Shown: positions 31,474 through 58,121 of the stretch, in pieces
How positions within the stretch are numbered: the stretch's first letter is position 1
Layout of the letters: each line of letters opens with the position of its first letter
Origin: Isoetes taiwanensis
Lineage: Eukaryota > Streptophyta > Lycopodiopsida > Isoetales > Isoetaceae
NCBI GenBank assembly: GCA_021234155.1
Contig: JAJEKV010000071.1
Location: forward strand, 2,429,138-2,493,137
Direction of reading: 5' to 3'
DNA: 64,000 bases
Notes under the pieces: model-generated
What the model saw: only the letters and a program-made list of their open reading frames with translations
Database searches by the model: none
What the model was told of the DNA's origin: nothing
Made by a program: the position numbers and the translations under genes

Positions 31474-31631
31474 TGTGACGTTCCAGGATAATATACGGTA
31501 TGAATACGTATATTATACTGACACGTCACTAGTACATGTCGACTTAGACGACATGTACGCACCGACCATAAAGGGGTAGTACCCTAGGGTACAACCTTGT
31601 GACCTATTATATTGCACATGCTAAGGCCACA

Positions 31632-34439
31632 TCCTATATTATAATGTTATGTCGTAATTCCTGGATTTGGATCCAGCCCTAGATCGGACGGCCACAGATG
31701 GCCTAACCAGATCGAAGGGTCCAAACAAAGCCCCTTTTTTTTAAATATAATCTCTTTTTTCGATGGTCCAAATGCCCTTTATTCTGCGAAGCCCTTCCGA
31801 GTCTGACGGCCATGACCACATCAGCCTGTAAACACGTTTTTTTTTCCTTGCCCTAGCTACCGCTGTGAGCACAGCAACCCAGGCCTTGATCGATTCATGT
31901 AGTTGCCCCATGGCCGTTTTTGCTTGCAGGATTTTCCGGAGGAGAAGCAAGCGACTTCATGCCTTTTTTTAGCTTGGCTTTTCAGGATTTCTCGCCAGAG
32001 AAGCAAGTTGCTTCATGCCTGTCATTGGCTTTGAGGTAGATATTCCGGAGGAGAGACAAACTGATAATGAGGGTTCATCTCTCAAAACCTCTGTTCATGG
32101 TTCTAGAAAGCAGGATTCTGGAATGCGTGGTTTCTGGCTTCTTATTATAAGTATAAAATGGCATGATGCCATGTCCAGCACTTGGCATGGATATATTCTG
32201 CCGAAGTCTTCTACAGTGCAAGGCCTTATATTTAGCGAGATCATGTAATACAGATTCATGGCTACTATCTCTGGAACCTCGATTGGGTATCTTCTGAATC
32301 CAGACTCCTGATTTTCGTTTGGGTTTTGTTGAAGAAAACAGTGTCGTTTCTTAGTGGGGCATTGTCTGGATAAACTGGAGTTGGGGAAGTATATGCTCCT
32401 TCGTATCTCAGAATTGCCGCTGGTGGTATAGGCTCCCTGTCTCTCAAAGGCGGAAACCACTATGTAATATTGGCCTATTGGGGTTGATCTGCAGTGACTA
32501 AGAAAGTGTATGTCTGGCTTGGATGGATCTGAGATGAGGTATTTTTAATTTGCTTTGTGTAGGATGCATCAATTTCTACCACTGTTAGACTGTAATTTGC
32601 TATCGTGATAAAGAGATTTGGAAGCTTTTCTTTGTTAGGTTGAAGCAACTAACGCTGCATTTTCTTATAACAAAAGCAGCAAAACAAACCAAACCAGCAA
32701 ACCACCAGGCCAGCAAATCACCAGGCCAGCAAATCACCAGCAAACGTGTAGAACAGCAGCATGTGCATAGTTTTTCTTCTGCTTCGTGTGAAGGTAAATA
32801 CAATCTCTTCTGGCATTATAGCATGTCGATGTAAATATGCAAAAGTGTAGGTTCAGGGATCTTATTTAGGAGATGGAAACTGGCCATGGAATTGTCATTA
32901 GTGTTTGGTTGATTTGCAGGTCTGTCCATCCAAAAGTGCTACAAACCAGTTATGTTGTTTCAAGAGAAATTGACGTCTACATTTTGCTGAATAATCCATG
33001 TTTGAACTATAAATAAAGCTATCTGAATAATCCATGTTTGAACTATAAATAAAGCTATCGGAGTTTAACTATTGTGCGTTTGCTTTCCAATTGAAATAAG
33101 TTTCTGCCTGTTGTGCTACATCAATAATGCAAACATAATAATATGCATGTGTTTTTAGGATGCACATCATTAGTGTGGGTTGCTTTGCAGGTCTGTCCAT
33201 CCAAAAGCGGTACAAACCAATTGTGTTGTTTCAAAAGAAATTGACGTCTACATTAAATTGACGCCTACATTTGCTGAGTAATTCATGTTTGAACTGGAAA
33301 AAAAAGCTATTCTGAATCTAAATCCGAAGCTGCAAATTGGGGTAAGCTTTGCTTTGCTTTTTAATTTGTTTTTGAACAGCTAAGCTAGGGCTTGAATAGG
33401 ACAATTTTCTCTACTGTTGTGGTACAACATTTAACCTCTAGACGTTTCTCTTTTCAGGATTGCATCATTTAGTCTGGTTGAATACCTCATAGAAATTGCA
33501 CTATGATCTTCGAAAAATAGAAGTTTGTGCGTTTGGCACAAGCCAGTCTATGTCTACTGCCACATAAGTTCAATACAAAAGAAATTCCTACTTATATCAT
33601 CCAGCAAAAGGTCATGGAAGTAAAAAATTTGAGATTCCTGTAACATTATGGATATTTATGCACATCCAATAGTATTTGAATTGTACTCTTCATTCTTTAT
33701 AATACATTCCATCTTGCAGTTATTGTTAGTTCTTACAAGGCAATATAACCATGCCCAGTGTGACTCAAATGTGGATCTGATTGTTCAGTTGGTTGCATCA
33801 CTTATTGTACAGGTACTTATTGGAAGCTTGATACACTTATTGTACTTTTGGAATTCTTTATTCGATTCGAATGTTGGCTGAATTGCCAATGCAAAACCAA
33901 ATTTAAGAACATTGATGGTGTTATTTGAAATGCCATGGTGAAATGGCAAAAATAGAAAAGCATTATCATAGATAATAAATAATAACACCTTACAAAATAC
34001 TTTGCATGCATAAGCAACATCTGAAGTCGTATATTTTTTACTGCATGCATAAGCAACATCTGAAGTCTTATCTGATTATGTACAAAGCTTACACAAACTA
34101 AAGCGGTACAAAAATACTAATGGACTAAATTATTGCCCAAAGCTACGTGAGAGCAAAGAACCCTTGCTATGTGAGAGCAAACAACCCTTGACATTTTAAA
34201 TGTTGGGTCAACTCTAATATTATAATTTTTTGCATTTAAAAGGACATTTAAAATGTACAAGCTTGAGATCATATACCTAGGCCACAAGGTTACATAGGAA
34301 ATTGTTTCTCCTTATGCCATTACGATTGGTAAGGGCTTGAAGAGTTTGTCATGGTCTGTAATGGTTCGCTTTTATCATTGCGGCCATAATATTTACATGC
34401 CCCCAACTTATGCCCAGCAACGCTGGGCACCTTTACTAG
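31632..34439 (+). mobile_element. Helitron copy 2 (2808 bp)
   Basis: Starts TCCTATATTATAATG after host A (31631). Ends with the hairpin GCCCAGCAACGCTGGGC (34412-34428) plus ACCTTTACTAG, then host T (34440). It differs from copy 1 by a few substitutions and indels. It sits inside the plus-strand LTR, which dates it as younger than that retrotransposon. Confidence 0.93.
32195..32447 (-). pseudogene. Laccase-like exon fragment in Helitron copy 2
   Basis: Same antisense remnant as at 9870-10120: AAILRYEGAYTSPTP, NDTVFFN and KIRSL, then, in a second frame, YPIEVPEIVAMNLYYMISLN. The frameshift is shared by all three Helitron copies, so it predates their spread. Confidence 0.65.
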
Positions 34440-35852
34440 TGTGAATATAATATCCTTTTGCCATGTGGCAATAGCCCATTGACCAATCAGGGCCCAGCCC
34501 TAAAGTCGTGGGGATAAAGAGGCATAAACCCTAAAAGGGAAACCCTTTCAGTCACCAGCCCCCATAAGTCAGATTGGAGCAGCAGTGGACGTTTTCTCGC
34601 GTGAACAGTAGCAGAGGAACCGACATTCCTTAGTAGCAGCTCGATCCAAGCCAGCAATCTCGAGATTCAGCAGCATGGACGCCTTCAGAGGAGTGGGAGC
34701 CAGCCAAGAAGCCGGTTAATGGTTGATCCGATAGTTAGATCCGAGTTTTCAGCCCTCATTCCATAGGATTAGTGTTCATTCTTAGCTATAGGCGACCCCT
34801 ACCTAAGAATGATAGATACTAACAAAGGAACATAACCATGTATGATTAGGTAGATTAGAATAGATGTATTCTATTGTTTCAGTTCTGTTGTGATGATATT
34901 GTGACATTCTATGCGCCACTCTTGTGTATTGGGAAGGGGGGTAGAGACCCAGAGCCCAAGTAGTTGTATGATCATAGTTTTAGCCCATTAATTCCCAATT
35001 AATGCGGCCTGTGCATAAGAGCCCGCCTGGCTGTGGGTGGAGGAGCTAGATCGGCTGACAAGGGAGGGCTTGTCTAATCACGGTTGATCCCGTTGGCGCG
35101 TAAAGACGGCCGGGGAGCGCTGTGAGCTAGGCCTAATACCCTGGCACTGTGTGAGGGTAGGGTATGGGCTCGACACTCGTGGGGTGACGCGTCATCTTCC
35201 AGTGAGTTCAAGTCGTATACGAGCAGTGGCTCTCTAGCTCGCCCGTGGATAGCATGAACCTCCTGGAGGAGAGAGATCTCCTCCTGCCTCATTGGGACTG
35301 AGGAGATGCAACCCAGTAGTAGTAGCCCCCCTGGCTATTCACCCGGCAGGCTACGGTCAGGCTCCAATACTTTTTCAGCCTATCTGCATAGTATGCACAG
35401 GAGGGGCGGATGGAGTGGACTACCCAACGGCCATGTTCCTTTGCCAGCCAAATCCATTTGCCATGAATTCTGTCTGCATTGCTCTCTGGAGACCCCAAGC
35501 TATCAGTCGATCCCCATGAGTCTGAGCCTGGGTAGGATCTTCCCTATGTTATGTTGATGTACTGATGTGTGATGCAGTTACTGTGATATGGTGGACCACC
35601 CTTCGAGGTGGGTATATTATTATTGCTTGATGTTATGTGCTCATGTTTTGTTTACGCTTCTTCCGTTGCTAGGTCGATCCCGAGGGAGACGGGATGAATG
35701 ACACGTCCATTCTTCCCCGTCGGGTTCTTGGCCACCATCGAGGGCCCGATGTTAGGTGGACGGCCTCACATCAGCGGGCAGATGCTGGTTTGAGGGATGA
35801 TCTCCAGTTTGTATACGATCGGGGCATCGTATATGAGCCGGGCCGTCCACAA

Positions 35853-35865
35853 TGGTATCGAGCTC
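35853..35865 (+). promoter_or_regulatory. Primer-binding site (initiator tRNA-Met type)
   Basis: TGGTATCGAGCTC follows the LTR end after one base. It resembles TGGTATCAGAGC, the complement of the initiator methionine tRNA 3' end used by many plant LTR elements. It fixes the orientation of the element and places the H3-like gene first in its internal region. Confidence 0.7.
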
Positions 35866-36106
35866 GATCTTGGCGCACTGGATCGAAAGAATCGCCCAAA
35901 ACCCTATAGGGACTAACTCATCTAGACATTCAGTCTTGGAGGTAAAAGCCCAAGCACAAACCTCGAGTAGCGGGAAAATTTTTTTCTCCCGGGGTAGAGT
36001 TAGTAATTATCTAAGATTAGGATAAATAGAGAACATAGATAAGATAGAACAAACAGTCGAAAAAGCGCTTAAAAGATCCTACTAAATTTCAAGCACTTTT
36101 GGCCAA

Positions 36107-36178
36107 TGACTCCAAGAGTGCACCAGGAGCATGTTAGGTTCAGACCTAATGGCCCTCTCGCGCACTCTTAGAGTAGTC
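36107..36178. repeat. Two-arm hairpin repeat 1
   Basis: An outer stem pairs GACTCCAAGAGTG with CACTCTTAGAGTagTC. An inner stem is TTAGGTTCAGACCTAA. This is the first and most diverged copy. Confidence 0.85.
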
Positions 36179-36321
36179 ACCCCATATGAACCCTAGAACT
36201 TGGCCTTAAGAACCCCAAATGGTAAAATAAAAGATGAAATCCCAGTTAAAATGCTCGAAATAGCTAGAATTTTATCCTGAAACATCGAAAAACATTAAGT
36301 ACAAGTCACTTTTGGAACAGT

Positions 36322-36390
36322 GACTCCAAGAGTGTGCCAGAGTATAGTTAGGTCCCGACCTAACCCCCCCCTCGCGCACTCTTAGAGTCG
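36322..36390. repeat. Two-arm hairpin repeat 2
   Basis: Outer stem GACTCCAAGAGTGTGC / GCGCACTCTTAGAGTC with inner palindrome TTAGGTCCCGACCTAA. Starts 215 bp after repeat 1. Confidence 0.9.
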
Positions 36391-36531
36391 TCCCTAAAAG
36401 TGACCTCAAAAATTGATTATAAATTACTCAAAGGGTCAAAGTAATAATAGGATCTTGCTTAAAATGCTTAAAATAGTGGGTAACAACATGTAAATTGTGT
36501 AAATTGGATGTGTTGGAGCAGAGAAGGCCAA

Positions 36532-36599
36532 CGACTCCAAGAGTGCGCCAGACCATAGTTAGGTCCCGACCTAACCCCATCCTCGCGCACTCTTAGAGC
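36532..36599. repeat. Two-arm hairpin repeat 3
   Basis: Outer stem CGACTCCAAGAGTGCGC / GCGCACTCTTAGAGC and the same inner palindrome TTAGGTCCCGACCTAA. It begins 210 bp after repeat 2 and about 290 bp before the H3-like ATG. Confidence 0.9.
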
Positions 36600-36822
36600 C
36601 ATTCGAAGAAGCAGGAGCAAACAAGACCCCAATTTCGCCCAAGATGAGGAGACTTTCGCCAGCAAACTAACCAGAAGACTAAATCGATCGAACCCTAAAA
36701 ATTCAACCCTAAAAATTACGGGACATAGGCTCATTTTTTTAGGGTTTCTCCCGTGCTTCCACGAGCTCCTTCTGATTAGCCGAACTTTTGGCGCCCTGCT
36801 CCAAATCAGACGCTGTCATACA

Positions 36823-38003
36823 ATGGCTAGGACCAAACAAACCACCCGCAAGCCAAAGAAGGACGATAGACCCAGCGCCCAAGTGCTCGCCGCTGAACAG
36901 AAGCTCAAAGATGCTAACGACAAACTGAAGGCTGACATGGAGAGGCGGCCTAGGTATTACAGGAATTTGGAAAAGAGGCGCAGGAAAGAAGAAAAGGCCA
37001 GGAAGAAAGAAGAAAAGGCAAAGAGAAGAGAAGAAAGAGCCAAGAGAAAGGAGGAGAAAGCGAGAAGAAAAGCAGATGAGGAGGTTGCAGAAGCAGAAGA
37101 CGACCAATGGCGAGAGCAAAGAACCAAGAATAGAGAGGATCCCGACCCCAAAGGAAAAAGGGTAATGACTGAAGAACCCCCACCTAAGAAGAGGAGAACC
37201 TCGGTCGGCGTAACCATAAACGAACCAACCGAAGGCGAACAACCTCCAGCCTCGTCAGAAGACACCGATGATATAGCAGAACTCTTGAGGCAACCCTTCT
37301 CGGAATGGGAGAATCCTCACATCAGAAGCCTAACCCTCGTCCGGACACAGATGAAACGCCGGAGGAAGAACCACTCCCAGCTCAAGATGCAGCTGAGACG
37401 CAGATTGACCTACCTCCGCCATTACCCCCACCATTTTTGGAATGGCAAGAAGCAAAGAAACTAGATGCAGAGAAAGCAGCTGGCAAGAAAGCAACCAAAA
37501 TCGCCCGCGACTCGTACACCTTGGGGCCGGAGAGGAGGTACAAGAAAGAATTAGCAGATTACAAAGTATACAAGAAGATGCACGAGGAATACGTAGCCTA
37601 TTACGAAGCAAACAGGGTCAAAGTTGTCGAAGGAGGGAGGCCAACTCGAGAAGCATTCCAGCTCAAACCTCCGCCAGAACTGCCAGAACCCCCCAAGAAG
37701 CCTATGAAGAGATCCCAAGACTCCCCTTTTGCGAGAGCCCTGCGAGAAATCAAACACTTCCAAAGGAGCTATGGATTCCTCATCCCGAGAGCAGCATTCC
37801 AGAGGTTCGTCCGAGAAATCTTGTGGGAGTTCGACCCCAACAAGCAAGTAACCAACGACATGTTACTCGCTTTACAAGAAGCAGTAGAGATGGAGGTCGT
37901 ACATCATTTCGAGGATTCATTGGCATGCACTCTCCATGCAAAAAGAGTCACCCTTCAACCAAAGGATATGAAACTGGCTAAATACATCAAGAGGAGAGAC
38001 TAA
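36823..38003 (+). CDS. Giant histone H3-like protein with H3 tail and H3 fold (one frameshift)
   Basis: The product would be about 392 residues against about 136 for normal H3. Residues 1-10 (MARTKQTTRK) copy the H3 tail: the positions matching Lys4, Arg8 and Lys9 are kept, Ala7 is Thr, and Ser10 is replaced by Pro. Residues about 25-100 are a Lys/Arg/Glu-rich coiled-coil-like stretch. Residues 100-165 hold a basic patch (PPKKRR) and an acidic region. After a frame change near 37320 come proline-rich linkers (PPPLPPPFLEW; PPPELPEPPKKP). Residues about 303-392 are a complete H3 fold: ALREIKHFQRSYGFLI, FQRFVREI, LLALQEAVEMEVVHHFED, CTLHAKRVTLQPKDMKLAKY. The frame change (CCTCACATCAG) is a 1-2 base indel at a CAG site and may be a sequencing error. 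The gene lies between LTR/PBS and the retroelement's next ORF and has its own AATAAA. I infer a retroelement-borne H3 homologue; a host gene caught beside the element is the alternative. Confidence 0.85.
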
Positions 38004-38070: not shown

Positions 38071-38145
38071 GATATATAGTCGTTTAAAAATGTGCATTCA
38101 TTAGGTACAGTATTAGTTTTTGAGCAATTGGGGTAATTTGACCAA

Positions 38146-38214
38146 CGACTCCAAGAGTGCACCAGAGCATAGTTAGGTCCCGACCTAACCCTCTCCGCGC
38201 GGACTCTTAGAGTT
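38146..38214. repeat. Two-arm hairpin repeat 4
   Basis: Outer stem CGACTCCAAGAGTGCAC / gcgGACTCTTAGAGT with inner TTAGGTCCCGACCTAA. Located downstream of the H3-like gene. Confidence 0.9.
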
Positions 38215-38356
38215 ATCCAGCCAACTGGAACAGTCATTAGACCTACTTGCTCCAAACCGGGTAAATAAACAAAGAAACTCGCATTTAGGAAGAAAACTAA
38301 AAGGGAATTACCCCTTCCACCGCATTTTTTGGATCCATTTGACAGCAATAGGCTAA

Positions 38357-38426
38357 CGACTCCAAGAGTGCGCCAGAGCATACTTAGGTCCCAACCTAAC
38401 ACCCCCCTCGCGCACTCTTAGAGTCG
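38357..38426. repeat. Two-arm hairpin repeat 5
   Basis: Outer stem CGACTCCAAGAGTGCGC / GCGCACTCTTAGAGTCG (perfect except for a central mismatch) with inner TTAGGTCCCAACCTAA. Starts 211 bp after repeat 4 and lies upstream of ORF1 of unit A. Confidence 0.9.
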
Positions 38427-38648
38427 CCCAACCTTCCCAAGTTCATAACTTGAGCTAGACAAACTTTAGCCTTCATCCCAAATATCAGGAGTTTTAGAAA
38501 CCCTAAAAATTTTAGGGCATAAATTCCCTATATATACCCGTATAACCCCTAAACCTCAACCACAAAGATTGCTCCCCGCGATTGAGGCGATCTCCCGGCT
38601 TACTCAAAGGCTCCCGGTTCCGCTTGATATCGGCAAACAATTCTCGCC

Positions 38649-40170
38649 ATGGCTACGTAATCTTTCATCGGTTGGTATAGCCCCCACGCTTTGAAGTAGA
38701 TGTCAATATAGTATTCCAAGTATTTCAAAAAGAATTTGACCTTTCAGCAACCCTGAACTCCAATCCTTTCTACCAGCAAGTCCTGCAAGAATTCCAAGAG
38801 AAAGTTATCCCTAGCTTACAGAAGATACCGCCATGCATAGGGTACTTTGTACCAAGGACCCAGAATGATGCAAAGCGGCCCTCGGTCATGTACCCAATAT
38901 TGCCAAAGTATTGCGGAACGTAACCAACCGCTTACCAGCCTACATGACCCTAACCAAAGAATGGAAAAGTTTTCTCCTCCTACAACACTGACCTTTAGCG
39001 ATATATCTAGTATATAGGGTCAAACCATAATAGGCTTAACCATCAATTCAGCCACCGGAGGTCACACCCTTGGACGCAAAGTTGATTTAACGACTACCGC
39101 CGGAGTATGAAGAGACCATAGCGTAAGCATCCGAGAGAGTGAAAACTCCGAAAGGTGAAAAGCGAGGATGACATAGAGGTGGACCCAGAGGGGGAACGCC
39201 GGGCGAACAAGACATCACCCGCCTCGAAGCCGACAGACCACCCCGAGGATTGCACAACCAATCGGGTTGGGAATAACAAGTTTAGCACCAATCATAGTCG
39301 AAGGACAAGAATACTTGCCGCTAAATGACATCAAAACCTCCCCTAAATCAGGGGACAGAGGGCTACCGTTGTTGATCTAACTCCTTCACCATCTACGGAG
39401 ACAGCCGGATTTAGAAGACTTCATTGACCAAGAAACTGAAGATTTTCCGTGCAAACACGAAGCGCCTACTTACACAGATACACCATGCTCCGGACATTGA
39501 AGCTTACGGCGCTATCAGAGGTATGATGACGGAAGAACTCCCTACCGAGGAGGAGTTTAGAGCACTTCAAGAGCAGATGGGAATAAGGGGGAAGACAACA
39601 AGAGTACTTCAAGGGGAGTCTTCTTCCTCGCAAGAACAGTAGCAAAATTCCAAGGAGAGCCACAAACCCGACAAGTGTACCTAACGCTCTTCCGGGATTA
39701 TAAGGAATTAGTTCAAGTACCCATCGACAAGATTATCGCCAAGGCACGTGGGTACCTCAGAGCACGTGGAGGAGTACGAGAACAGCAAAGACTCAAATAT
39801 TATCTTCCGCTCCTAATGCATCGGTAGAGTAATAATATTTCACAAGCGCCAGCCCACACGAGAGGAAGCCGCGGCAGATGCTAGTAGCACTTTCGGGATT
39901 TGGCATGCACGCACGCTTATCAGAAAAAGTCGACCATGTTATTTTGGTGAAGCGGAAAATAGCCTTGGGCATTTTCGACTTTGCAGTACCACACCTTCGA
40001 CAAGGTAGGTTAGTAAAGGACAAAGAGCTCATACCTCCCATAGACGGGTGGAAGAGCTAGCATCCGCCATCCGAGGGGGATCAGCAAGGGATATACTCAG
40101 GAACTTGGGAAGTACAGTAGGTACAGCCAAAGTAAAGAAGTTCCTTGAGGATCACCCAGACTATCAGTAA
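38649..40170 (+). pseudogene. ORF1 of unit A (unknown protein, disrupted)
   Basis: Homologous to the better ORF1 of unit C (59392). The fourth codon is a stop (ATG GCT ACG TAA), where unit C has ACA GAA, and many small indels break the frame. The C-terminal part is recognisable up to the stop at 40168-40170. The frame-breaking differences fall mainly at CAG, CTG and CG, so part of the damage may be sequencing error. Confidence 0.7.
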
Positions 40171-40328
40171 ATCAATGTAATGGAAATCATGACTACTGTA
40201 TTAAGATATATCGGCTATATATATTAATATAAGACCCTTTTTGAATTGCATTTCAAAATGTCTTTTTGGTATCGTTGTCTTAACAATCATATCATTTAAA
40301 CACCTAATGCAACCAACAAAAGGAACTC
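40171..40328 (+). promoter_or_regulatory. AT-rich spacer between ORF1 and Gag-Pol
   Basis: About 160 bp, almost identical in all three units. It contains TATATATATTAATATAAG (TATA-like) and TGGTATCGTTGTC. It could hold a promoter for a separate gag-pol mRNA, or the 3' end of an ORF1 mRNA. Confidence 0.4.
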
Positions 40329-43300
40329 ATGATAAATGGTGCCAATGTAATATGTGCAGTCAGAGCAGCTAGGAATGTCGACCTTGAGTTCCAAGCCCAA
40401 GGCGATCAGACACCTCTCAGACAATTCCAGCCTCGGGAACTATTCGAAGAGTATTACGCACCGACACCGGAAGAAGAAATCTCGCAGATGAGGTCAGATC
40501 TGCAAGAAATCAAAGCCATGCTGGTAGGCAGAGGAAGAAACAAGCAGGACCAGAATGTACAGGTCCCAGAGGCCCGTTCTCAGCACAAAGGAAAGGAGAA
40601 AAAGAGGAACCGACCCAGATCTTCTAGTTCCAGCTCTTCCGACAGCTCGGATTCAAGCTCGAAGTCCGAGGAGGAAACAAGAAGAACGGCCCGAAGGAAG
40701 AAAGAATAACGGAGGCAGCAAGGCCAATCCGACTACCGTAAGAAGGTCGATTCGCTTTAAGTAATGTTTGAAAGCACGAAAATGGAACAGCTTTTCCGCT
40801 TAAAAACAGATCGTGGATGGAAGTCAAGCATGGCTAGACGAGATGAGTGAGTACGGAAATGCTTACGCATGAAAGATAAAGATAATGGCAGTGGTAGCCA
40901 CCGCTAACTTGAAAGGGGCAGCCCGTATTTGGTGGAGGGGTTATGCTAAAGCCCATGGAATGAGCAGAGACAAGTGCAGGTTCACAAAGTTCGCAAGGGC
41001 CTTCAAAAAGCACTATGTTCCAAGAGAACACAAGTGCCACCAGATGCAAGCATTCCACAGATTGCAACAGGGGAACAAATGCATTGAAATATACGGAAGA
41101 GTTCATGAGGTTGAGGCTATATGTGCCAAAACTCAGCGAGAGAAGAGCAGTGGAAGGCTATCTGGAGGGGTTGAATGAGGACCTATGGAAGATAGTCCGA
41201 GCCCTCAACCCACGCCAAGATTCGGAGGCTTGAAGCTTAAGGCACCGAGCCTACAAGGGACAGGCCTCGTAAAAGTGAACCCAAGCAATTGGTATGACAA
41301 AGGAAAAGCATATGGAGGTCGAGCCCAAGAGCAAACAGTCCATCGCCTGCAAAGACACCATACACCGGAAATCAATGGAAACAGCCAGAGAAAAAGCAGG
41401 TCAGCTTCAAAGAGAAAGGACAAGGGGAGGCTCAAATTATTCAAAAGACAGTCAAGTAGTTCCTCAACTCCATCCCGAAAAGAAAAGCGGCAGGAATGTA
41501 TAGAAAAACAGTTGAAGCTTAGGTGTTTCCAAGTGGGGCATAGAACACACAACCGCCTGCTCAGTAATGAATGCAAAGACTTTATGAGATGGGAGGTTGG
41601 GAGACCCAAACATGTAAGAAGAGGAGGACTAAAGACGCTTAACTATATCCATGGTGAGTGTCACATCTTTGCCGCCATAGACACGTAAAAGCGCAGAGAG
41701 CCGCATACCAAGTAATATCCACGATTGGTAAAATAGCCGCCAAATCTTTTATAGTCCTCATAGATCGTGGCGCTCCCACAATTTCGCCACCAAGGATGGC
41801 ACAAATGCTAAAGTTGAAAACACTAAAGTCTAAGCCTGCACCAAGAGTAGTGTTAGCCGAGCCATCATAAGCACACGGGCCGGCAAGAGGGTGAATTTCA
41901 ATCTAGACTTACCGGGTATCAATATTGAAATGGGAGCAGAGATCATGAGCATAGGAAAATATGACCTCATCATAGGTATGGAATACCTCAATCCGGCGAA
42001 AGCACAAATAGATTGTGGAGAGCGGAAGGTGAAGCTCACGGCGCCTAACGGGAAAATCATAGAAATCTCAGGTAAGCAAGTGACACCTATAATGCAATGC
42101 ATGTCGAGTAAGAAATTACTTAGATGCATCAAAAGGAGCAAGTTGCATACATCTTCAAATTAGAACTTGCGAAGAAGAAGAGGCACCAGAAGATAAGGAA
42201 GATAAACCAAGAAGCAAACTTGTAGTAGCCAAGCTAATAGAGGAATTCCATGACTTGTTCCCCGATGAAATCAAGGAGCTTCCGCCATATAGGGGAGTAG
42301 AGTGCTAAATTGCACTTTCGAACTGTGCACTAAGCCCACGCAGTAAGGCACCATATAGAATGACAGCTCACCTAACTATCGAGTTGAAGAAGCAATTGCA
42401 AGAGCTATTAGACCTAGGGTTCATAAGACCTAGTGTCTCCGCTCGGAGCCCCCATATTATTCGGCCAAAAGAAAGATGGAAGCTTGAGGATGTGTATTGA
42501 CTATCGCCAATTAAACAAACACACAATCAAGAACAAGTATGCCTTACCCTGAAGCGGATGACCCGATGGATCAATTACAAAGCGCCGTGGTCTTCCAAGA
42601 TAGACTTAAGGTCCGGATATCATCAAATCAGAATCAAAGAGGAAGATATTCACAAGACGGCCTTCCAACAAGATACCACCACTATGAATTTGGCCATGCC
42701 ATTTGGCCTATCAAATGCCTTCAAAGAACGTTCATGAGACTCATGAACGATATCTTTCGAGAATTCCTTGACACATTTGTTATCGTGTTCTTCGATGACA
42801 TTTTGGTGTATAGCAAGTCCCTAGAGGAGCATATTCAGCACTTTAGAAGGGTACTTGAGAAGCTGAGAAGACACCAGCTTTATGCGAAGTTGTCGAAATG
42901 TCATTTCGCCACCGAAAGAGTGGAATACTTGGGGCATATCATATCAGCAGACGGCATCTCCACCGATCCGGCAAAGATCCAAGCAGTGATTGAATGGCCA
43001 GCACCAAAGAACATACACGAGGTGAGAAGTTTTTTGGGCTTAGCAGGATATTATAGAAAGTTCATCAAGAACTTTGCTAAGATAGCAGCACCCTTAACGG
43101 ACCTTACCAAGGCAGAAAAGATAAAAGACTGGGTGGCACATTGGCAAAAGAAGGCTCAAGTAGGATTTGAGAAGTTAAAGGAGGCCTTAACAACCGCCCA
43201 TGTCTTAACATTGCATGATCCAGAGAAGGACAAGCTAGTCGCAACTGATGCGAGCAAGATTGCGACGGGAGCAGTCTTAATGCAAGAGGAAAGAGTCGTA

Positions 43301-45135
43301 GCATACGATTCACGAAAGACGAATGACGCAGAGACTCGCTACCCGACACATGATCAGGAGCTATTGGCAGTAGTAAGAGCTTTAAAGATCTGGAGACACT
43401 ATCTATTGGGAAGGAATTTCCAATTAGATACCGACCACCAGAGTCTGCAGTACATCTTCACGCAACCATTGTTGAATTTAAGACAAAGAAGATGGATGGA
43501 GTTCCTCGAAGAGTACGACTTCGAGATTGTATACAAGCCAGGGAAACTCAATGTGGTCGCAGACGCTCTATCAAGGCACCCCTTAACAACAAGGGTGCAT
43601 TGCAATGTCATATCAACACTTACCAGTGAGTTTGGCAAGAAAATAGAAGAAACGCTGCCAACAGACAAGGACTTCCAGGAAGTATGGGCTAGCCTCTCTA
43701 AAGAGGCAAGAAGGGACAAAGAGAGAGAAGCCTTCAAACATTTTAAGAAGGAAGGAAAGCTCTTGTACCATAAAAATAAGTTGTGTGTGCCGGAATCATC
43801 CGGAGTCAGAAGGTTGATTCTCCATGACACCCACAACAACCCAATAGCCGGCCACGCAGTTTTTTTAAAACCTACTTCAAGATAAGAAGTAGTTACTATT
43901 GGCCGTGCATGAAGAAGCAGATAGCAAGGTACATACGCGAAAGTGTCAGCTATGCCGCCCAGACCAAAGCGAACAACTACTAAATCCGTGAGCATTAGAG
44001 CCATTGCCGCACCAAACTCCAAGTGGGAGATAATAAGCATGGACTTCATTACAGTGGCTCCCTAGAACCATAAGGGGCAAAGATGCCTTAATGGTCGAGT
44101 CGACAAATTGTCGAAGATGGCGACTTTGTGCCTTTGTAGGAGCACCGACACGGATTAGACAAATGGGTGCTATTCACTAAGGAGATTTTTTAGACTCCAT
44201 GGGATGCCAAGAGAAATAATCTCTAATAGAGATTTGAAGTTCATGAGTGCATTCTGGCAGGATCTCTTCAGCACCATCGGAACGAAATTGTCAATGAGCA
44301 CGGCTTATCACCCTCGCATGATGGGTGACGGAGCGCACCAATTGGATACTCGAAGATATGGCGGAATTATGTCCGAACAAGAATCAAAGTGGGATGACTT
44401 CATTTACTTGGTTGAGTTTGCATACAATAGCACCAAGCAAGAGTCATCCCAAATGTCGCCGATTTATGATCAACTACGCTATCGATTGCTTGACACCGCA
44501 CACTTGGCACAACCCCATTGTCCAAGGTAGAAGTATCCCAGGATGATACCGTAGAGAGATGCAACAATTGGTTGAAGAGGTGCGAGGATACCTCCCAGCA
44601 GCAAGAAGCCGGCAAAAGAGCATAGCTGATCTAAGACCTAACAAAGAAGGGAGTTCCAAGTAGGGGACAATGTTTGGCTAAAAGATAAAAGTCAAACAAG
44701 CAAAGCTCGCGATCGGCCATTGCAAGAAGCTTGCTCCAAGGTGGGCTGGTCCATTTAAAATTGTCAAAAAGAGTAGGTAACCAAGCCTACAAATTGACTT
44801 ACCAAAGACACCCTCAAGATCCATAGAGTCTTTCACGTAAGTCTCCTAAAGAAACACACTCCTAATCCAGAGGAAGTATTGGAGACACCGAAGTTTATTG
44901 GAATTAACGGACGATCAACTTGAGATTGTTCCCCAGGTTCTTCTCGAATCCATCTTATAAGAAGACGGTAGAAGATCTCAATTTCTCCAAAGACCTTGTG
45001 AAATGGACGACTTACCAATGGAGGACGCCACTGGTACTACAATCGATCTTGAGAAGCATTACCCACAATGCAAGGGTCATGCAAGGGTCATCCCAAATGT
45101 CGAGTTTTAGAAACCCTAAAAATTTTAGGGCATAA
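40329..45135 (+). pseudogene. Gag-Pol of unit A (Ty3/gypsy chromovirus, frameshifted)
   Basis: Starts at ATG 40329 (MINGANVICAV). Order: Ser/Lys-rich Gag N part (to about 40709), Gag core (NLKGAARIWWRGYAKAHGMS, about 40900), nucleocapsid zinc knuckle with the last Cys lost (about 41520), protease (about 41720-42110, motif LIDRG where unit B has LIDCG), reverse transcriptase ([14 protein letters not shown] at about 42780), RNase H (VATDASKIATGAVL at about 43230, then TDHQSL), integrase zinc domain (HDTHNNPIAGHA) and core (SNRDLKF), and a chromodomain remnant before the stop at 45135. The RT to integrase part is open for 448 codons (42539-43885). Several frameshifts elsewhere make this copy inactive as read. 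Confidence 0.9.
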
Positions 45136-45259
45136 ATTCCCTATATATACACGATAACCCCTAAACCTCAACCACAAAGATCGCTCCCGCAATTGAGGCG
45201 ATCTCCCGGCTTACTCAAAGGCCCCGGGCCTGCTCGAGCATCGGCAACACAATTTCGCC

Positions 45260-46787
45260 ATGGTTACGTAATCTTTCATCGCTTGGTATAGCCTCCCCCG
45301 CTGTTGAAGTAGATGTCAATATAGTATTCCAAGTATTTCAAAAGAATTTGACCTTTCAAAGCAACCCCTCAACTCCAATCCTTTCTACCCGACAAGTCCC
45401 GCAAGAATTCCAAGAGAAAGTTATCCCTAGCTTACGTAAGAAGATACCGCCATGCATAGGGTACTTTGTACCAAGGACCGCGAATGCAAACAAATTTCAG
45501 TCATGTACCCAATATTGCCAAAGTATTATGGAATGAACCAACCGCTTACAGCCTACATGACCCTAACCAAAGCAATGGAAAAGTTTTCTTCCTCCAACAA
45601 CAACCTTTAGCGATATATATCTAGTATATAGGGCCTAAAACCATAATAGGTGAACCATCAATTCAGCCACCGGAGGTCACACCCTTGGACGCCTTGTAGA
45701 CCTAATCAAGCATCGGGCTTGAGTATGAAGAGACCATAGCGTAAGCATCCGGGAGAGAGTGAAGACTCCGAAAGCAGAAAGCGAGGATGACATAGAGGTG
45801 GACCCAGGAGGAGGAACGCCGCTTTGAACAAGACATCACCCGCTTGAAGCCGACGGGACCACCCCGAGGATTGCACAACCAATCGGCCTGGGAATAACAA
45901 GTTTAGCACCAATCATAGTCGAAGGACAAGAATACTTGCTGCTAAATGACATCAAAAACCTCCCCGAATGCAGGGACAGAGGCTACCGCGTCGACGAACT
46001 CCTTCACCATCTACGGAGACAGCCGGATTTAGAAGACTTCATTGACCAAGAAACTGAAGATTTTCCGGTGCAAATATGAGAAGCAGCTACTTACACAGGA
46101 CACACCATGTCGGACATTGAAGCTTACGGCGCTATCAGAGGTATGATGACGGAAGAACTCCCTACCGAGGAGGAGTTTAGAGCACTTCAAGAGCAGATGG
46201 GAATAAGGGGGAAGACAACAAGAGTACTTCAAGGGGAGTCTTCTTCCTCGCAAGAACAGGTAGCAAAATTCCAAGGGAGAGCCACAAACCTGACAAGTGT
46301 ACGAACGCTCTTCCAGGATTATAAGGAATTAGTTCAAGTACCCATCGACCAGTATGCGTCAAGGCACAGGGGTACCTCAGGAGCACGTGGAGGAGTACCG
46401 GGAACAGCACTCAAATATTATCTTCCGCTCCTAACAGACGGTAGAGTAATAATATTTCACAAGCGCTTCAGCCCACACGGAGAGGAAGCTGTGCAGATGC
46501 TAGTAGCACTTTCGGGATTTGGCATGCACGCACGCTTATCAGAAAAAGTCGACCATGTTATTTTGGTGAAGCGGAAAACAGCCTTGGGCATTTTCGACTT
46601 TGCAGTACCACACCTTCGACAAGGTAGGTTAGTAGTGACAGCAGCTCATACCTCCCATAGACGGGTGGAAGAGCTAGCATCCGCCATCCGAGGGGGATCA
46701 GCAAGGGATATACTCAGGAACTTGGGAAGTACAGTAGGTACAACCAAAGTAAAGAAGTTCCTTGAGGATCACCCAGACTATCAGTAA
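45260..46787 (+). pseudogene. ORF1 of unit B (intact C-terminal half)
   Basis: The start region has the same early stop as unit A (ATG GTT ACG TAA). From 46107 to 46787 the frame is open for 226 residues: MSDIEAYGAIRGMMTEELPT, an EEFRALQEQMGIRG stretch, a Ser-rich linker, then a globular-looking part (VQMLVALSGFGMHARLSEK, VDHVILVKRKTALGIFDF, HRRVEELASAIRGG) ending FLEDHPDYQ. No known family is recognised. Similarity to a BRCT-like fold was considered but is weak. Confidence 0.7.
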
Positions 46788-46945
46788 ATCAATGTAATGG
46801 AAATCATGACTACTGTATTAAGATATATCGGCTATATATATTAATATAAGACCCTTTTTGAATTGCATTTCAAAATGTCTTTTTGGTATCGTTGTCTTAA
46901 CAATCATATCATTTAAACACCTAATGCAACTAACAAAAGGAACTC

Positions 46946-49900
46946 ATGATAAATGGTGCCAATGTAATATGTGCAAATGAGCAGCCTAGGAATGTCTAAC
47001 CTTTGAGTTCCAAGCCCAAGGCGATCGACACCTTCTTCGCATTAATTCCAGCCTCGGGAACTATTCGAAGAGTATTACGCACCGACACCGGAAGAAGGAA
47101 TCTCGCAGATGAGGTCAGATCTGCAAGAAATCAAAGCCATGCTGGTAGGCAGAGGAAGAAACAGGCAGGACCAGAATGTACAGGTCCCAGAGGCCCGTTC
47201 TCAGCACAAAGGAAAGGAGAAAAAGAGGAACCGACCCAGATCTTCTAGTTCCAGCTCGACTGGCTGGATTCAAGCTCGAGTCCGAGGAGGAGGAAAAGAA
47301 GAACGACGGGAAGGAAGAAAGAATAACGGGAGGCAAAGAAGGCCAATCGACTACCGTAAGAAGGTCGATTCGACCTTAAGTAATGTTTGAAAGCACGCAG
47401 CCGGAACAGAAGCCCGCGAAAAACAGATCGTGGATGGAAGCGGGCTAGCATGGCTAGACGAGATGAGTGAGTACGGAAATGCTTACGGCATGAAAGATAA
47501 AGATAAAAGGTGGTAGCCACCGCTAACTTGAAAGGGGCAGCCCATATTTGGTGGAGGGTTATGCTAAAAGCCCATGGAATGAGCGAGAGACAAGCGCGTG
47601 TTCACAAAGTTCGCAAGGGCTTTCAAAAAGCACTATGTTCCAAGAGAACACAAGTGCCACCAGATGCAAGCGCCCACAGATTGCAACATGGGGAACAAAC
47701 TCCCGACTGAAATATACACGAAGAGTTCATGAGGTTGAGGCTATATGTGCCAAAACTCAGCGAGAGAAGAGCAGTGGAAGGCTATGTGGAGGGGTTGAAT
47801 GAGGACCTACGGAAGATAGTCCGAGCCCTCAACCCACGCTCAGTATCGAAGGCGGAAGCGAAGGCACTGAGCCTACAAGGGACAGGGCCTCAGAAAAGTG
47901 AACCCAAGCAGTGGTATGACAAAGGAAAAGCATATGGAGGTCAGAGCCCAAGAGCAAACAGTCCATCGCCTGCAAAGACACCATACACCGGAAATCAATG
48001 GAAACAGCCAGAGAAAAAGCAGGTCAGCTTCAAAGATAAAGGACAAGGGGGAGGCTCAAATTATTCAAAGACAGTCAAGCAGTTCCTCAACTCCATCCCG
48101 AAAGAAAAGCGGCAGGAATGTATAGAAAAACAGTTGTGCTTCCGGTGTTTCCAGCTGGGGCATAGAACACACAACTGCCCGTTCGTAATGAATGCAGCAC
48201 TTGCGGAGATGGGAGGTTGGGAGACCCCGACAGAAGAAGAGGAGGACGAAGGACGCGACTATATCCATGGTGAGTGTCACATCTTTGCCGCCATAGACAC
48301 AGAAAGCGCAGAGAGCCAGTACCAAGTAATATCCACGATTGGTAAAATAGCCGCCAAATCTTTTATAGTCCTCATAGACTGTGGCAGTTCCCACAATTTC
48401 GCGTCACCAAGGATGGCACAAATGCTAAAGTTGAAAACACTAAAGTCTAAGCCCAGACCAGTAGTGTTAGCTAGCGGAGCCATCAGGCACACGACCGGCA
48501 AGAGGGTGAATTTCAATATAGACTTACCGGGTATCAATATTGAAATGGGAGCAGAGATCATGAGCATAGGAAAATATGATCTCATCATAGGTATGGAATA
48601 CCTCAATCCGGCGAAAGCACAAATAGATTGTGGAGAGCGGAAGGTGAAGCTCATGGCGCCTAACGGGAAAATCATAGAAATCTCAGGTAAGCAAGTGACA
48701 CCTATAATGCAATGCATGTCGAGTAAGAAATTACTTAGATGCATCAAAAGGGAGCAAGTTGCATACATCTTCAAATTAGAACTTGCCGAAGAAGAGGCAC
48801 CAGAAGATAAGGAAAATAAACCAGTAAGCAAACTACCCAAGCAGGTAGCCAAGCTAATATTCCATGACTTGTTCCCCAACGAAATCAAGGAGCTTCTGCC
48901 ATATAGAGGAGTAGAGTGCGAAATTGCACTCGAACCAGGCACTAAGCCCACGAGTAAGGCACCATATAGAATGACAGCTCACGAACTATCAGAGTTGAAG
49001 AAGCAATTGCAAGTGCTATTAGACCTAGGGTTCATAAGACCTAGTGTCTCCTCGTTCGAGCCCCCATATTATTCGGTCAAAAGAAAGATGGAAGCTTGAG
49101 GATGTGTATTGACTATCGTCAATTAAACAAACACACAATCAAGAACAAGTATGCCTTACCCGAGGCGGATGACCCGATGGATCAATTACAAGGCGCCAGT
49201 GGTCTTCTCGGTGATAGACTTAAGGTGCGGATATCATCAAGTCGAGAATCAAAGAGGAAGATATTCACAAGAAGAACAAGATCGGCCACTATGAATTCAC
49301 GATCCATGCCATTTGGCCTATCAAATGAACAAAGAACGTTCATAAGACTCATGAACGATATCTTTCGAGAATTCCTTGACACATTTGTTATCGTGTTCTT
49401 CGATGACATTTTGGTGTATAGCAAGTCCCTAGAGGAGCATATTCAGCACTTGAGAAGGGTACTTGAGAAGCCGAAGACACCCCTTTTATACGGTTGTCGA
49501 AATGTCATTTCGCCAATCGAAAAGAGTGGAATACTTGGGGCATATCATATCGCCAGACGGGCATCTCAACCGATCCCAAGAAAGATCCAAGCAGTTGATT
49601 GAATGGCGGCCACCAAAGAACATACACGAGGTGAGAAGTTTTTTGGGCTTAGGATATTATAGAAAGTTCATCAAGAACTTTGCTAAGATAGCAGCACCCT
49701 TAACGGACCTTACCAAGGCAGAAAAGATAAAAGACTGGGTGGCACATTGGCAAAAGAAGGCTCAAGTAGGATTTGAGAAGTTAAAGGAGGCCTTACACAA
49801 CGCCCTGCCTTTAACATTGCATGATCCGAGAAGGACAAGCTAGTCGCGAATCGATGCGCAAGCAAGATTGCGTGGGAGCGCCTTAATGCAAGAGGAAAGA

Positions 49901-50606
49901 GTCGAAAGCATACCATTCACGAAAAGATGAATGACGTAGACTCTCGCTACCCGATACATGATCGTGAGCTATTGGCGTTAGTAAAGAGCTTTTAAAGATC
50001 CGGAGACACTATCTATTGGGAAGGAATTTCCAATTAGATACCCACCACCGAGTCCGGCATTACATCTTCACGCTAACCATTGTTGAATTTAAGACAAAAA
50101 GATGGATGGAGTTCCTCGAAGAAAACGACTTGAGATTGTATACAAGCCGTGGAAAACTCAATGTGGTCGCAGACGCGCTCTATCAAAGGCACCCCCTTAA
50201 CAACAAGGGTGCATTGCAATGCCATATCAACACTTACTAGTGAGTTTGGCAAAGAAAATAGAAGAAACGCCAACAAAGGACTTCCGTGAAGTATGGGCTA
50301 GCCTCTCTAAAGAGGCAAGAAGGGACAAAGAGAGAGAAGCCTTCAAACATTTTAAGAAGGAAGGAAAGCTCTTGTACCATAAAAATAAGTTGTGTGTGCC
50401 GGAATCATCCGGAGTCAGAAGGTTGATTCTCCATGACACCCACAACAGCCCAATAGCCGGCCACGCAGGTTTTACGAAAACCTACTTCAAGATAAGAAGT
50501 AGTTACTATTGGCCAGGCATGAAGAAGCAGATAGCAAGGTACATACGCGAGTGTCAGCTATGCCAGCAGACCAAAGCGGAACAACTACGAATTCCAGGAG
50601 CATTAG
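46946..50606 (+). pseudogene. Gag-Pol of unit B, part 1 (Gag to integrase zinc domain)
   Basis: The frame 47729-49099 is open for 456 codons and gives the best view of Gag-PR. It has a zinc knuckle C-FR-C-FQLG-H-RTHN-C (48136-48177), a protease with LIDCGSSHNF (about 48370; Cys replaces the usual Thr/Ser of D-T/S-G), and the start of RT. RT ([10 protein letters not shown] at about 49395) is followed by frameshifted RNase H. The integrase zinc domain is clear at 50430-50590: HDTHNSPIAGHAGFTKTYF...YYWPGMKKQI...CQLCQQTK, giving the HHCC residues. The coding region is broken by the insertion at 50607 and continues at 58122. Confidence 0.9.
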
Positions 50607-50995
50607 AAGCCTTATGCAATTAAATTGAGAGATATGACTCATTTTTGCAAGTGAGAAAATTGGTTCACGCATCAAATTAACATTATTTATAAAACAACTC
50701 ATATTCAATAAAAATTTGAAAAGGAATTTGATGTAGTAATCCATAACTAACAACTATCAAGTAGTACAGTGAATTGTAAATTTTATTCCAATGGACCCGG
50801 ACCCATACATAACATCCGTCCAACATATTCCAACGTATCTTTCACAATATATCTTTCACAATGTCTAAAAATTCCGAGCTTTATTCACGAGTGGTTTTTA
50901 ACCCTTTTTTTTTCTCCTTTTCAATTTGTGTTGTGATCCCTGCATGTAGAAAAACATTGAAACACAAAACGTTTTTAAGAAGCATTATGGAATAA

Positions 50996-53801
50996 CTAGT
51001 AAAGGTGCCCAGCGTTGCTGGGCATAAGTTGGGGGCATGTAAATATTATGGCCGCAATGATAAAAGCGAACCATTACAGACCATGACAAACTCTTCAAGC
51101 CCTTACCAATCGTAATGGCATAAGGAGAAACAATTTCCTATGTAACCTTGTGGCCTAGGTATATGATCTCAAGCTTGTACATTTTAAATGTCCTTTTAAA
51201 TGCAAAAAATTATAATATTAGAGTTGACCCAACATTTAAAATGTCAAGGGTTGTTTGCTCTCACATAGCAAGGGTTCTTTGCTCTCACGTAGCTTTGGGC
51301 AATAATTTAGTCCATTAGTATTTTTGTACCGCTTTTAGTTTGTGTAAGCTTTGTACATAATCGATAAGACTTCGGGATGTTGCTTATGCATGCAAGAAAA
51401 AATATAATGACTTCAGATGTTGCTTATGCATGCAAAGTATTTTGTAAGGTGTTATTATTTATTATCTATGATAATGTTTTTCTATTTTTGCCATTTCACC
51501 ATGGCATTTCAAATAACACCATCAATGTTCTTAAATTTGGTTTTGCATTGGCAATTCAGCCAACATTCGAATCGAATAAAGAATTCCAAAAGTACAATAA
51601 GTGTATCAAGCTTCCAATAAGTACCTGTACAATAAGTGATGCAACCAACTGAACAATCAGATCCACATTTGAGTCACACCGGCATGGTTATATTGCCTTG
51701 TAAGAACTAACAATAACTGCAAGATGGAATGTATTATAAAGAATGAAGAGTACAATTCAAATACTATTGGATGTGCATAAATATCCATAATGTTACAGGA
51801 ATCTCAAATTTTTTACTTCCATGACCTTTTGCTGGATGATATAAGTAGGAATTTCTTTTGTATTGAACTTATGTGGCAGTAGACATAGACTGGCTTGTGC
51901 CAAACGCACAAACTTCTATTTTTCGAAGATCATAGTGCAATTTCTATGAGGTATTCAACCAGACTAAATGATGCAATCCTGAAAAGAGAAACGTCTAGAG
52001 GTTAAATGTTGTACCACAACAGTAGAGAAAATTGTCCTATTCAAGCCCTAGCTTAGCTGTTCAAAAACAAATTAAAAAGCAAAGCAAAGCTTACCCCAAT
52101 TTGCAGCTTCGGATTTAGATTCAGAATAGCTTTTTTTTCCAGTTCAAACATGAATTACTCAGCAAATGTAGGCGTCAATTTAATGTAGACGCCAATTTCT
52201 TTTGAAACAACACAATTGGTTTGTACCGCTTATGGACAGACCTGCAAAGCAACCCACACTAATGATGTGCATCCTAAAAACACATGCATATTATTATGTT
52301 TGCATTATTGATGTAGCACAACAGGCAGAAACTTATTTCAATTGGAAAGCAAACGCACAATAGTTAAACTCCGATAGCTTTATTTATAGTTCAAACATGG
52401 ATTATTCAGATAGCTTTATTTATAGTTCAAACATGGATTATTCAGCAAAATGTAGACGTCAATTTCTCTTGAAACAACATAACTGGTTTGTAGCACTTTT
52501 GGATGGACAGACCTGCAAATCAACCAAACACTAATGACAATTCCATGGCCAGTTTCCATCTCCTAAATAAGATCCCTGAACCTACACTTTTTGCATATTT
52601 ACATCGACATGCTATAATGCCAGAAGAGATTGTATTTACCTTCACACGAAGCAGAAGAAAACTATGCACATGCTGCTGTTCTACACGTTTGCTGGTGATT
52701 TGCTGGCCTGGTGATTTGCTGGCCTGGTGGTTTGTTGGTTTGGTTTGTTTTGCTGCTTTTGTTATAAGAAAATGCAGCGTTAGTTGCTTCAACCTAACAA
52801 AGAAAAGCTTCCAAATCTCTTTATCACGATAGCAAATTACAGTCTAACAGTGGTAGAAATTGATGCATCCTACACAAAGCAAATTAAAAAAATACCTCAT
52901 CTCAGATCCATCCAAGCCAGACATACACTTTCTTAGTCACTGCAGATCAACCCCAATAGGCCAATATTACATAGTGGTTTCCGCCTTTGAGAGACAGGGA
53001 GCCTATACCACCAGCGGCAATTCTGAGATACGAAGGAGCATATACTTCCCCAACTCCAGTTTATCCAGACAATGCCCCACTAAGAAACGACACTGTTTTC
53101 TTCAACAAAACCCAAACGAAAATCAGGAGTCTGGATTCAGAAGATACCCAATCGAGGTTCCAGAGATAGTAGCCATGAATCTGTATTACATGATCTCGCT
53201 AAATATAAGGCCTTGCACTGTAGAAGACTTCGGCAGAATATATCCATGCTAAGTGCTGGACATGGCATCATGCCATTTTATACTTATAATAAGAAGCCAG
53301 AAACCACGCATTCCAGAATCCTGCTTTCTAGAACCATGAACAGAGGTTTTGAGAGATGAACCCTCATTATCAGTTTGTCTCTCCTCCGAATATCTACCTC
53401 AAAGCCAATGACAGGCATGAAGCAACTTGCTTCTCTGGCGAGAAATCCTGAAAAGCCAAGCTAAAAAAAGGCATGAAGTCGCTTGCTTCTCCTCCGGAAA
53501 ATCCTGCAAGCAAAAACGGCCATGGGGCAACTACATGAATCGATCAAGGCCTGGGTTGCTGTGCTCACAGCGGTAGCTAGGGCAAGGAAAAAAAAACGTG
53601 TTTACAGGCTGATGTGGTCATGGCCGTCAGACTCGGAAGGGCTTCGCAGAATAAAGGGCATTTGGACCATCGAAAAAAGAGATTATATTTAAAAAAAAGG
53701 GGCTTTGTTTGGACCCTTCGATCTGGTTAGGCCATCTGTGGCCGTCCGATCTAGGGCTGGATCCAAATCCAGGAATTACGACATAACATTATAATATAGG
53801 A
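50996..53801 (-). mobile_element. Helitron copy 3 (2806 bp)
   Basis: Reverse orientation. CTAG (50996-50999) is followed by the hairpin at 51007-51023; the 5' end TCC...CATTATAATATAGGA lies at 53801. It is flanked by host A (50995) and T (53802). It is near-identical to copies 1 and 2. Differences such as CTGGGC to CCGGC and CTTCAGATG to CTTCGGGATG fall at CTG/CAG. Confidence 0.93.
52987..53252 (+). pseudogene. Laccase-like exon fragment in Helitron copy 3
   Basis: Same remnant as in copies 1 and 2, here on the plus strand because the Helitron is inverted: AAILRYEGAYTSPTP, then in the other frame YPIEVPEIVAMNLYYMISLN and IRPC. Confidence 0.65.
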
Positions 53802-55800: not shown

Positions 55801-55831
55801 TCATAGATCATAGCTCGAGCTTATTATATAA

Positions 55832-56030
55832 TTGGCTCCTTATAGATCACGGACTTCAGTCCGTAGTCTCACAAACATTGGACTTGCTTATCACATAGTT
55901 GGCTCCTTATAGATCACGGACTTGAGTCCGTAGTCTCACAAACATTGGACTTGCTTATCATATAGTTGGCTCCTTATAGATCACGGACTTGAGTCCGTAG
56001 TCTCACAAACATTGGCCTTAAATCCATAGT
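55832..56030. repeat. 67-bp tandem repeat, three units
   Basis: Units start at 55832, 55899 and 55966 with TTGGCTCCTTATAGATCACGGACTT. Each contains the palindrome ACGGACTTGAGTCCGT (or CAG in the centre). Confidence 0.92.
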
Positions 56031-56307
56031 TCAAAATAAATCTCTACACTATGGGACTAAGGTCAAATGATATTTTCGTTGGACTTTCTTGATGTGGATA
56101 TGCTTATCTCCATTATTGTTGGCTCCATAAGATGCATTCATTTCCCCAAGTTCACGGACTTAAGTCCGTAATCTCAAGTTACAACTTATGCTCATTTTTA
56201 GTTGATTGGCTCCATAACATGCATTTGTTTTCTCTAGTTCACGGACTCAAGTCCGTAGCTCAAATTCATATTCTCAACTTGAGTCTAGTTTACGCACTTA
56301 AGTCCGT
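55849..56307. repeat. Six dispersed 16-bp palindromes ACGGACTT..AAGTCCGT
   Basis: Sites: 55849, 55916, 55983, 56154, 56241 and 56292, with a degenerate one near 56739. The flanks of the core stay GGACT/AGTCC while the centre varies symmetrically or nearly so (TTGA, TTAA, TCAA). They could be binding sites for a dimeric protein, for example the element's transposase. Confidence 0.85.
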
Positions 56308-57577: not shown

Positions 57578-57630
57578 CTGGAGACAAACAGACTTGAACC
57601 ACTAACACAAGGATTTTCAGCCCTTCGTGA
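57578..57630 (-). pseudogene. Mitochondrial-type tRNA-Phe 3'-half remnant
   Basis: The minus strand shows GGGCTGAAAATCCTTGTGTT (anticodon arm with GAA anticodon) followed by AGTGGTTCAAGTCTG (T arm). This matches plant mitochondrial trnF in its anticodon and T regions. The 5' half is missing and the acceptor is diverged, so it is not functional. Confidence 0.55.
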
Positions 57631-57634
57631 TAAT

Positions 57635-57960: not shown

Positions 57961-58121
57961 GTTTAGAATCATCTTTATCTTTGCATATAACTTTGAATGG
58001 TACATTAAGAAGATGATAAAGGATGCAACAAATGACTTCACGATGATAAAAGGACTTCAAAACTAGTCAATATGATTCAAAATGAGAAGTGGGATTCTCT
58101 CAATTTAATTGCATAAGGCTT

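Follow-up and report, generated by a model that had tools for sequence, protein, structure and literature searches.

A histone H3-like gene in chromodomain-bearing Ty3/gypsy retrotransposons of Isoetes taiwanensis

The 64,000-nucleotide stretch of the Isoetes taiwanensis genome analyzed here (contig JAJEKV010000071.1, positions 2,429,138 to 2,493,137; hereafter the window) contains a long terminal repeat (LTR) retrotransposon whose first open reading frame, ORF1, encodes an H3-like protein, and we are nearly certain that ORF1 is a captured histone H3 gene belonging to chromodomain-bearing Ty3/gypsy LTR retrotransposons of this genome. The H3 ORF occurs in the genome in five or more sequence types, which follow two designs. 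Type D, that of the window, and its sister type E retain the initial ten codons of H3, followed by a charged linker of ~290 residues and a diverged closing H3 fold; types A–C combine a nearly canonical H3 fold with a new N-terminal domain. The positions of features in the window are collected in Table 1.

ORF1 and its retroelement families

A preliminary description of the region, made from its sequence alone, reported a protein that starts like the H3 tail (36823) and has an H3 fold at its other end, and both features are borne out. The tail start, MARTKQTTRK, agrees with H3 in nine of ten letters, the sole change being A7T, and the Pfam Histone profile (PF00125) matches residues 140–239 of the second frame (E=4.8e-22, 78.9 bits), with histone H3 as the top PDB sequence match (3e-19); structure prediction for the fold in the window gave a low-confidence model that adds little. 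The window ORF1 is frame-broken, its tail and fold halves lying in different frames that overlap at 37272–37464. The halves were analyzed as separate frames, and the profile match is to the second; the first frame (36823–37464) alone has no Pfam match. The reported linker of ~290 residues is found in open D/E copies elsewhere in the genome, which have a 10-residue tail, a ~289-codon linker and a ~93-codon fold, but is broken in the window. The whole modifiable tail of H3 (residues 1–38) is not retained, with D/E keeping residues 1–9 only and A–C being without the start, and the predicted ORF1 product is an H3-derived chimaera and not H3 proper.

Searching the assembly (1,658,258,908 bases in 1110 contigs) with the second frame gives at least 150 matches (E≤8.4e-63; 54–100% identity), one of which is the window; the first-look candidates (9421 for the second frame and 8704 for PF00125) are not counts of copies. 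Open frames of 380 codons or longer, with no stop in the match, occur in 46 of the 150 matches listed, and five of these 46 cover the first part of the query only. Twenty of the at least 150 matches were fetched, picked for long frames: L033–L048 are of type D, the window type, and L049–L052 are of type E, with a linker that aligns poorly with that of D (the fold of L048 contains a shifted stretch). All 20 start with MAR, and 16 with MARTKQTARK; A1, R2, T6, A7 and K9 are invariant among the 20 (the window has T at position 7), and K4 is present in 19. The D/E tail is kept to K9 only, with P or V replacing S10 and with the S10, K14 and K27 sites missing, and the linker is charged and rich in K, R and E. 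Because there are at least 150 genome matches and both tail and fold are conserved, the arrangement of ORF1 is not due to chance.

The membership of type D in LTR retrotransposons rests on the spacing between LTR and H3 matches. The window-type LTR (query 35000–35826) has 40 scored genome matches, 24 of which are within 20 kb of an H3 match among those listed (23 on the same strand), as compared with a mean of 0.03 and a maximum of 1 in 200 control trials with H3 positions shifted randomly by 50–500 kb. Eleven of the 40, one being the window, are 1430–1525 bp upstream of the H3 matched stretch and eight are 8399–8818 bp downstream of an H3 match, in both cases on the same strand; the other five of the 24 are irregular in spacing, one of these being on the opposite strand. 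With 19 of 40 LTR matches at two fixed spacings, the H3 ORF is a gene of the retroelement, as had been proposed, and not its neighbor, and in this partial test we did not see the opposing pattern of H3-like copies at unique host loci and LTR and Gag-Pol copies without the gene. The 16 LTR matches with no H3 within 20 kb among the matches listed may be solo LTRs or neighbors of H3 copies beyond those listed.

The PF00125 profile identifies a second group of elements. At least 150 scored genome rows were obtained, all above the cut-off, and the eight rows extracted from the top of the list correspond to canonical H3 genes. Twelve further rows, picked for long open frames, all have open frames of 456–486 codons with a C-terminal H3 fold and a new N-terminal domain, which is of three related types (seven copies of A, four of B and one of C; PF00125 E-values for one copy each are 1.9e-43, 2.1e-40 and 2.6e-41, respectively). 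The folds of A–C are 83.9–88.2% identical to host H3, as against 46–50% for D and E. Ten of the twelve have paired LTRs (89.6–96.6% identical) with the H3 ORF between them, as expected of a retroelement gene, and target-site duplications are visible in six of these ten; in L010, L017 and L019 the matched LTR stretch stops short of the LTR start and a duplication is undetectable, and in L014 one is detectable in principle and none is seen. These ten usually have LTR ends TGTGACG...CGTCACA, a TGGTATC... primer binding site (PBS) and a purine tract. The gene order is LTR, PBS, H3 ORF, ORF2, Gag, protease, reverse transcriptase (RT), RNase H, integrase, chromodomain and LTR, with the loss of ORF2 in L009 and of RT and RNase H in L018.

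We note that the RTs of types A and B are up to 97% identical and their ORF1 N-terminal domains and ORF2 products ~30–45% identical, as if ORF1–ORF2 cassettes had been exchanged between A and B elements. An extra H3-fold match (47%) upstream of one 5' LTR (L012:627–752) is perhaps a nested element.

Selection on the H3 domains and possible roles

Ratios of nonsynonymous to synonymous substitution (dN/dS) were calculated by the Nei-Gojobori method; the pairs are non-independent, the copies were picked for open frames – a choice that gives no advantage to synonymous over replacing changes – and values for the ten-codon tail are rough. Among 15 D copies dN/dS is 0.05 for the tail, 0.17 for the linker and 0.07 for the fold, and among four E copies the tail dN is 0 with dN/dS of 0.19 for the linker and 0.08 for the fold; the fold values are 0.04 in seven A copies and 0.02 in four B copies. 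Between D and E the proportions of nonsynonymous (pN) and synonymous (pS) differences are 0.014 and 0.73 in the tail, with pN of 0.41 in the linker and 0.205 in the fold, where synonymous sites are saturated; the A and B folds differ with pN of 0.11 and pS of 0.83. Purifying selection thus acts on both tail and fold, and the low replacement and high synonymous change therefore point to old captures and lasting constraint. The fold tree does not distinguish one H3 capture from two.

Residues C110, H113, K115, R116, T118 and L126 are invariant in the 31 aligned fetched copies and the window, and K122 and D123 have one exception each across the same set. We take these to be residues of the H3–H3' bundle and of DNA contacts, and because they are conserved we infer that the protein could pair with host H4 and enter host chromatin. 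The role that we favor, without considering it probable, is that ORF1 protein paired with host H4 would be deposited in host chromatin and would tether the Gag or pre-integration complex of the element to nucleosomes, biasing the landing sites of new copies; the conserved ARTKQTARK end might be written and read by the host H3K4/H3K9 machinery and serve as a second chromatin handle. The integrase chromodomain keeps, as judged by eye, one of three residues of what we take to be an HP1-type cage, and because this cage looks incomplete an extra H3-based tether could be useful. Weighing against full nucleosome function in D/E, K56 and K79 are altered in all rows, and R63 in 19 of 20, window included. 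A bolder and rather doubtful proposal is that this retrotransposon clade builds its own nucleosomes from the H3 chimaera and host H4, with K4 and K9 open to modification on a long tether, in the service of integration site choice or escape from silencing; it would then be the first retroelement known to have a functional histone.

The main rival of tethering is an anti-silencing decoy, in which the H3-like protein and host H3 compete for H3K9 methyltransferases, readers or chaperones, or in which a nucleosome that is not fully markable is formed on element DNA, in either case letting the element escape silencing. The D/E tail, conserved to K9 and then changed to P or V with later modifiable sites missing, would suit a decoy, as would the concentration of the strongest selection on tail and fold, and the helix 2 chaperone-choice site is unlike the SAVL/TAVL of host H3, reading FAIL or HAIL in A–C and DMLL in D/E. 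A role of this site in chaperone choice has been described, and there are viral and bracovirus histones that change the chromatin of the host (PMC9145170). A simple decoy needs neither a 290-residue linker nor a full fold, however, and types A–C are without such a tail, and we regard this explanation as unlikely, if still the strongest competitor. The position of ORF1 before Gag and its K/R/E-rich charged linker are also compatible with an accessory Gag, whose basic fold and linker would condense element RNA or cDNA in the virus-like particle, but this leaves the conservation of the H3 N-terminus and of the H3–H3' bundle residues unexplained and seems distinctly improbable.

Types D and E contain HFQ and LIP motifs that presumably resemble those of plant CENH3, and descent from CENH3 with insertion directed to centromeric chromatin can be envisaged. 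Loop 1 of CENH3 is longer than that of H3, however, and D/E align without gaps to canonical H3 through loop 1 in a comparison drawn without host CENH3; in addition, the 60 listed PDB sequences are H3 or H3/CENP-A chimaeras, and a decayed relative in the window (14184–14699, minus strand) reads LIRKASF, closer to canonical H3 at this position. We consider a centromeric origin very improbable. Least probable of all, and scarcely credible, is a passive passenger, either a host neighbor or a host gene that was captured and then multiplied without having a function; a fungal hAT transduplication of an H3-like gene, which may be drifting in the view of its authors (PMC3538342), offers a precedent, but the dN/dS values are far below 1 (0.02–0.08 for the fold within A, B, D and E), there is little replacement change between types despite high synonymous change, and the place of ORF1 in the element is fixed.

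Comparison with known elements and histones

The statement that no LTR retrotransposon with a core-histone homologue had been described agrees with open-licence papers, among which we found none; the nearest case is a fungal DNA transposon, a hAT element of Pyrenophora tritici-repentis carrying the histone H3-like gene H3L (PMC3538342). Both are transposable elements with a multi-copy H3-like gene that has insertions in the tail, but the hAT element is a DNA transposon with terminal inverted repeats and 26 near-identical copies of H3L that have perhaps drifted according to its authors, whereas the Isoetes elements are LTR retrotransposons of several diverged types with strong purifying selection and an intact D/E tail start. 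Genes specific to Paracoccidioides lutzii are enriched in the histone domain, and no element is linked to them in the text available (PMC3203195).

The Isoetes elements resemble chromoviruses in their order of RT, RNase H, integrase and chromodomain, TG..CA LTRs, iMet-type PBS and 5-bp duplications, but differ in having two additional ORFs from LTR to Gag, the first being the H3 chimaera. Extra internal ORFs, sometimes upstream of gag, occur in other plant LTR retrotransposons (PMC7264820), and a host domain has likewise been captured in the orchid Gypsy demethylase elements (PMC9289625). In the available text neither article has a histone ORF, the word ‘histone’ occurring 0 times in the main text of PMC7264820 and twice, in other contexts, in PMC9289625; it occurs 0 times in the corresponding text on rotifer LTR elements with extra ORFs (PMC5408684), in the main text of the I. 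taiwanensis genome paper (PMC8566536) and in the available text of the Isoetes sinensis genome paper, which reports Gypsy expansion in Isoetes (PMC10541799). Chromoviruses with captured genes are already known, and what is remarkable here is the captured gene, a core histone under selection and with its signature start intact.

Viral histones, such as bracovirus H4 and the single H3 of large DNA viruses, are similarly core histones of a parasite with an altered or long tail and likely enter host nucleosomes (PMC9145170). These are histones of DNA viruses, however, and a 290-residue linker between tail start and fold is undescribed in the available text of that article, whose main text contains ‘retro’ 0 times. 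Long-tailed CENH3/CENP-A also combines an H3 fold with a long N-terminal part, but ORF1 shows no loop-1 lengthening in the alignment, is a retroelement gene and keeps the H3 tail start.

Work on how retrotransposons are targeted to chromatin and silenced usually deals with host histones and integrase chromodomains. In the present case a selected H3 is encoded by the retrotransposon, and whether mobile DNA can write itself into the nucleosomes of its host becomes testable. The elements also offer natural H3 variants with a kept tail start and a diverged fold that are still apparently selected. Repeats that resembled plant proteins in BLASTx were removed from the published I. taiwanensis repeat library (PMC8566536); such filtering could lose H3-bearing elements and calls for caution in repeat annotation.

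Organization of the window

The upstream LTR and tRNA-Met-type PBS reported previously are present in part. The 5' LTR (31474–35851) is split by an insertion, and the PBS has decayed: TGGTATCAGAGC, which lies after the 5' LTR in most of the relatives fetched and which we assign to tRNA-iMet, was not found at the window site with up to two mismatches allowed. No second LTR copy, and hence no 3' LTR, was found on the plus strand within the window; in its place the 3' side has three tandem ORF2–Gag-Pol units of ~6.6 kb with 91% identity, which reach near the window end and have neither LTR nor H3 between them (38473–63585). The reported position of ORF1 before Gag-Pol holds to the extent that Gag, protease, RT, RNase H, integrase and chromodomain follow downstream, but ORF2 intervenes; ORF2 has no Pfam match in the frames tested (two fetched copies and two window frames). 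Protease, RT, RNase H and integrase are in the Ty3/gypsy order with a C-terminal chromodomain, and the pol is that of a chromovirus.

Table 1. Features in the 64,000-nucleotide window.
Feature	Position	Strand	Remarks
Second decayed H3-like ORF, of another element	14184..14699	-	PF00125 2e-07
Related LTR region	18678..20318	-	Probably belongs with the element at 14184-14699
5' LTR, first part, starting TGTGACGTTCCA	31474..31630	+	TGTGACG at 31474
Helitron-like 2.8 kb repeat inserted in 5' LTR	31631..34447	+	Foreign to the element
5' LTR, second part	34448..35851	+	40 scored genome matches of 35000-35826
Decayed PBS-like TGGTATCGAGCTC	35853..35865	+	Most relatives have TGGTATCAGAGC
Leader hairpin 1	36104..36178	+	z -4.4
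Leader hairpin 2	36318..36392	+	z -7.4
Leader hairpin 3	36529..36603	+	z -7.0
H3 tail start MARTKQTTRK	36823..36852	+	ATG at 36823
First frame of H3-like ORF1, with tail and charged linker	36823..37464	+	
Second frame of H3-like ORF1, with linker and H3 fold	37272..38003	+	Stop ends at 38003
H3 histone fold	37725..37991	+	Pfam and PDB sequence matches
Hairpin 4, 3' of ORF1	38143..38217	+	z -5.0
Hairpin 5, 3' of ORF1	38354..38428	+	z -9.6
Unit 1: ORF2 remnant and Gag-Pol	38473..45087	+	ORF2 recognized because its DNA resembles units 2 and 3
Unit 1 Gag	from 40771	+	
Unit 1 protease	~41712-42145	+	
Unit 1 RT	~42225-43024	+	
Unit 1 RNase H/integrase/chromodomain	43028-45032	+	
Second ORF2-Gag-Pol unit	45088..59216	+	Interrupted ~50615-58121
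Third ORF2-Gag-Pol unit (matched part)	59217..63585	+	

The H3 ORF is flanked on both sides by RNA hairpins, five in all, spaced ~212 bp apart inside each group. They have no match in Rfam, and the motif is present in the short upstream flank of six of the 20 fetched D/E copies and in none of 32 other fetched loci; packaging, translation or pausing signals are possible roles.

The 2.8 kb repeat is present in three window copies that are ~99% identical (9305–12126, 31631–34447 and 50995–53803), one inside the 5' LTR and another inside the insert that interrupts pol. We call it Helitron-like from its ends, TCCTATATT and a hairpin followed by CTAGT, which we take to be Helitron hallmarks. The insert separating the two parts of the second unit also contains a tRNA match (57634–57706, minus strand).
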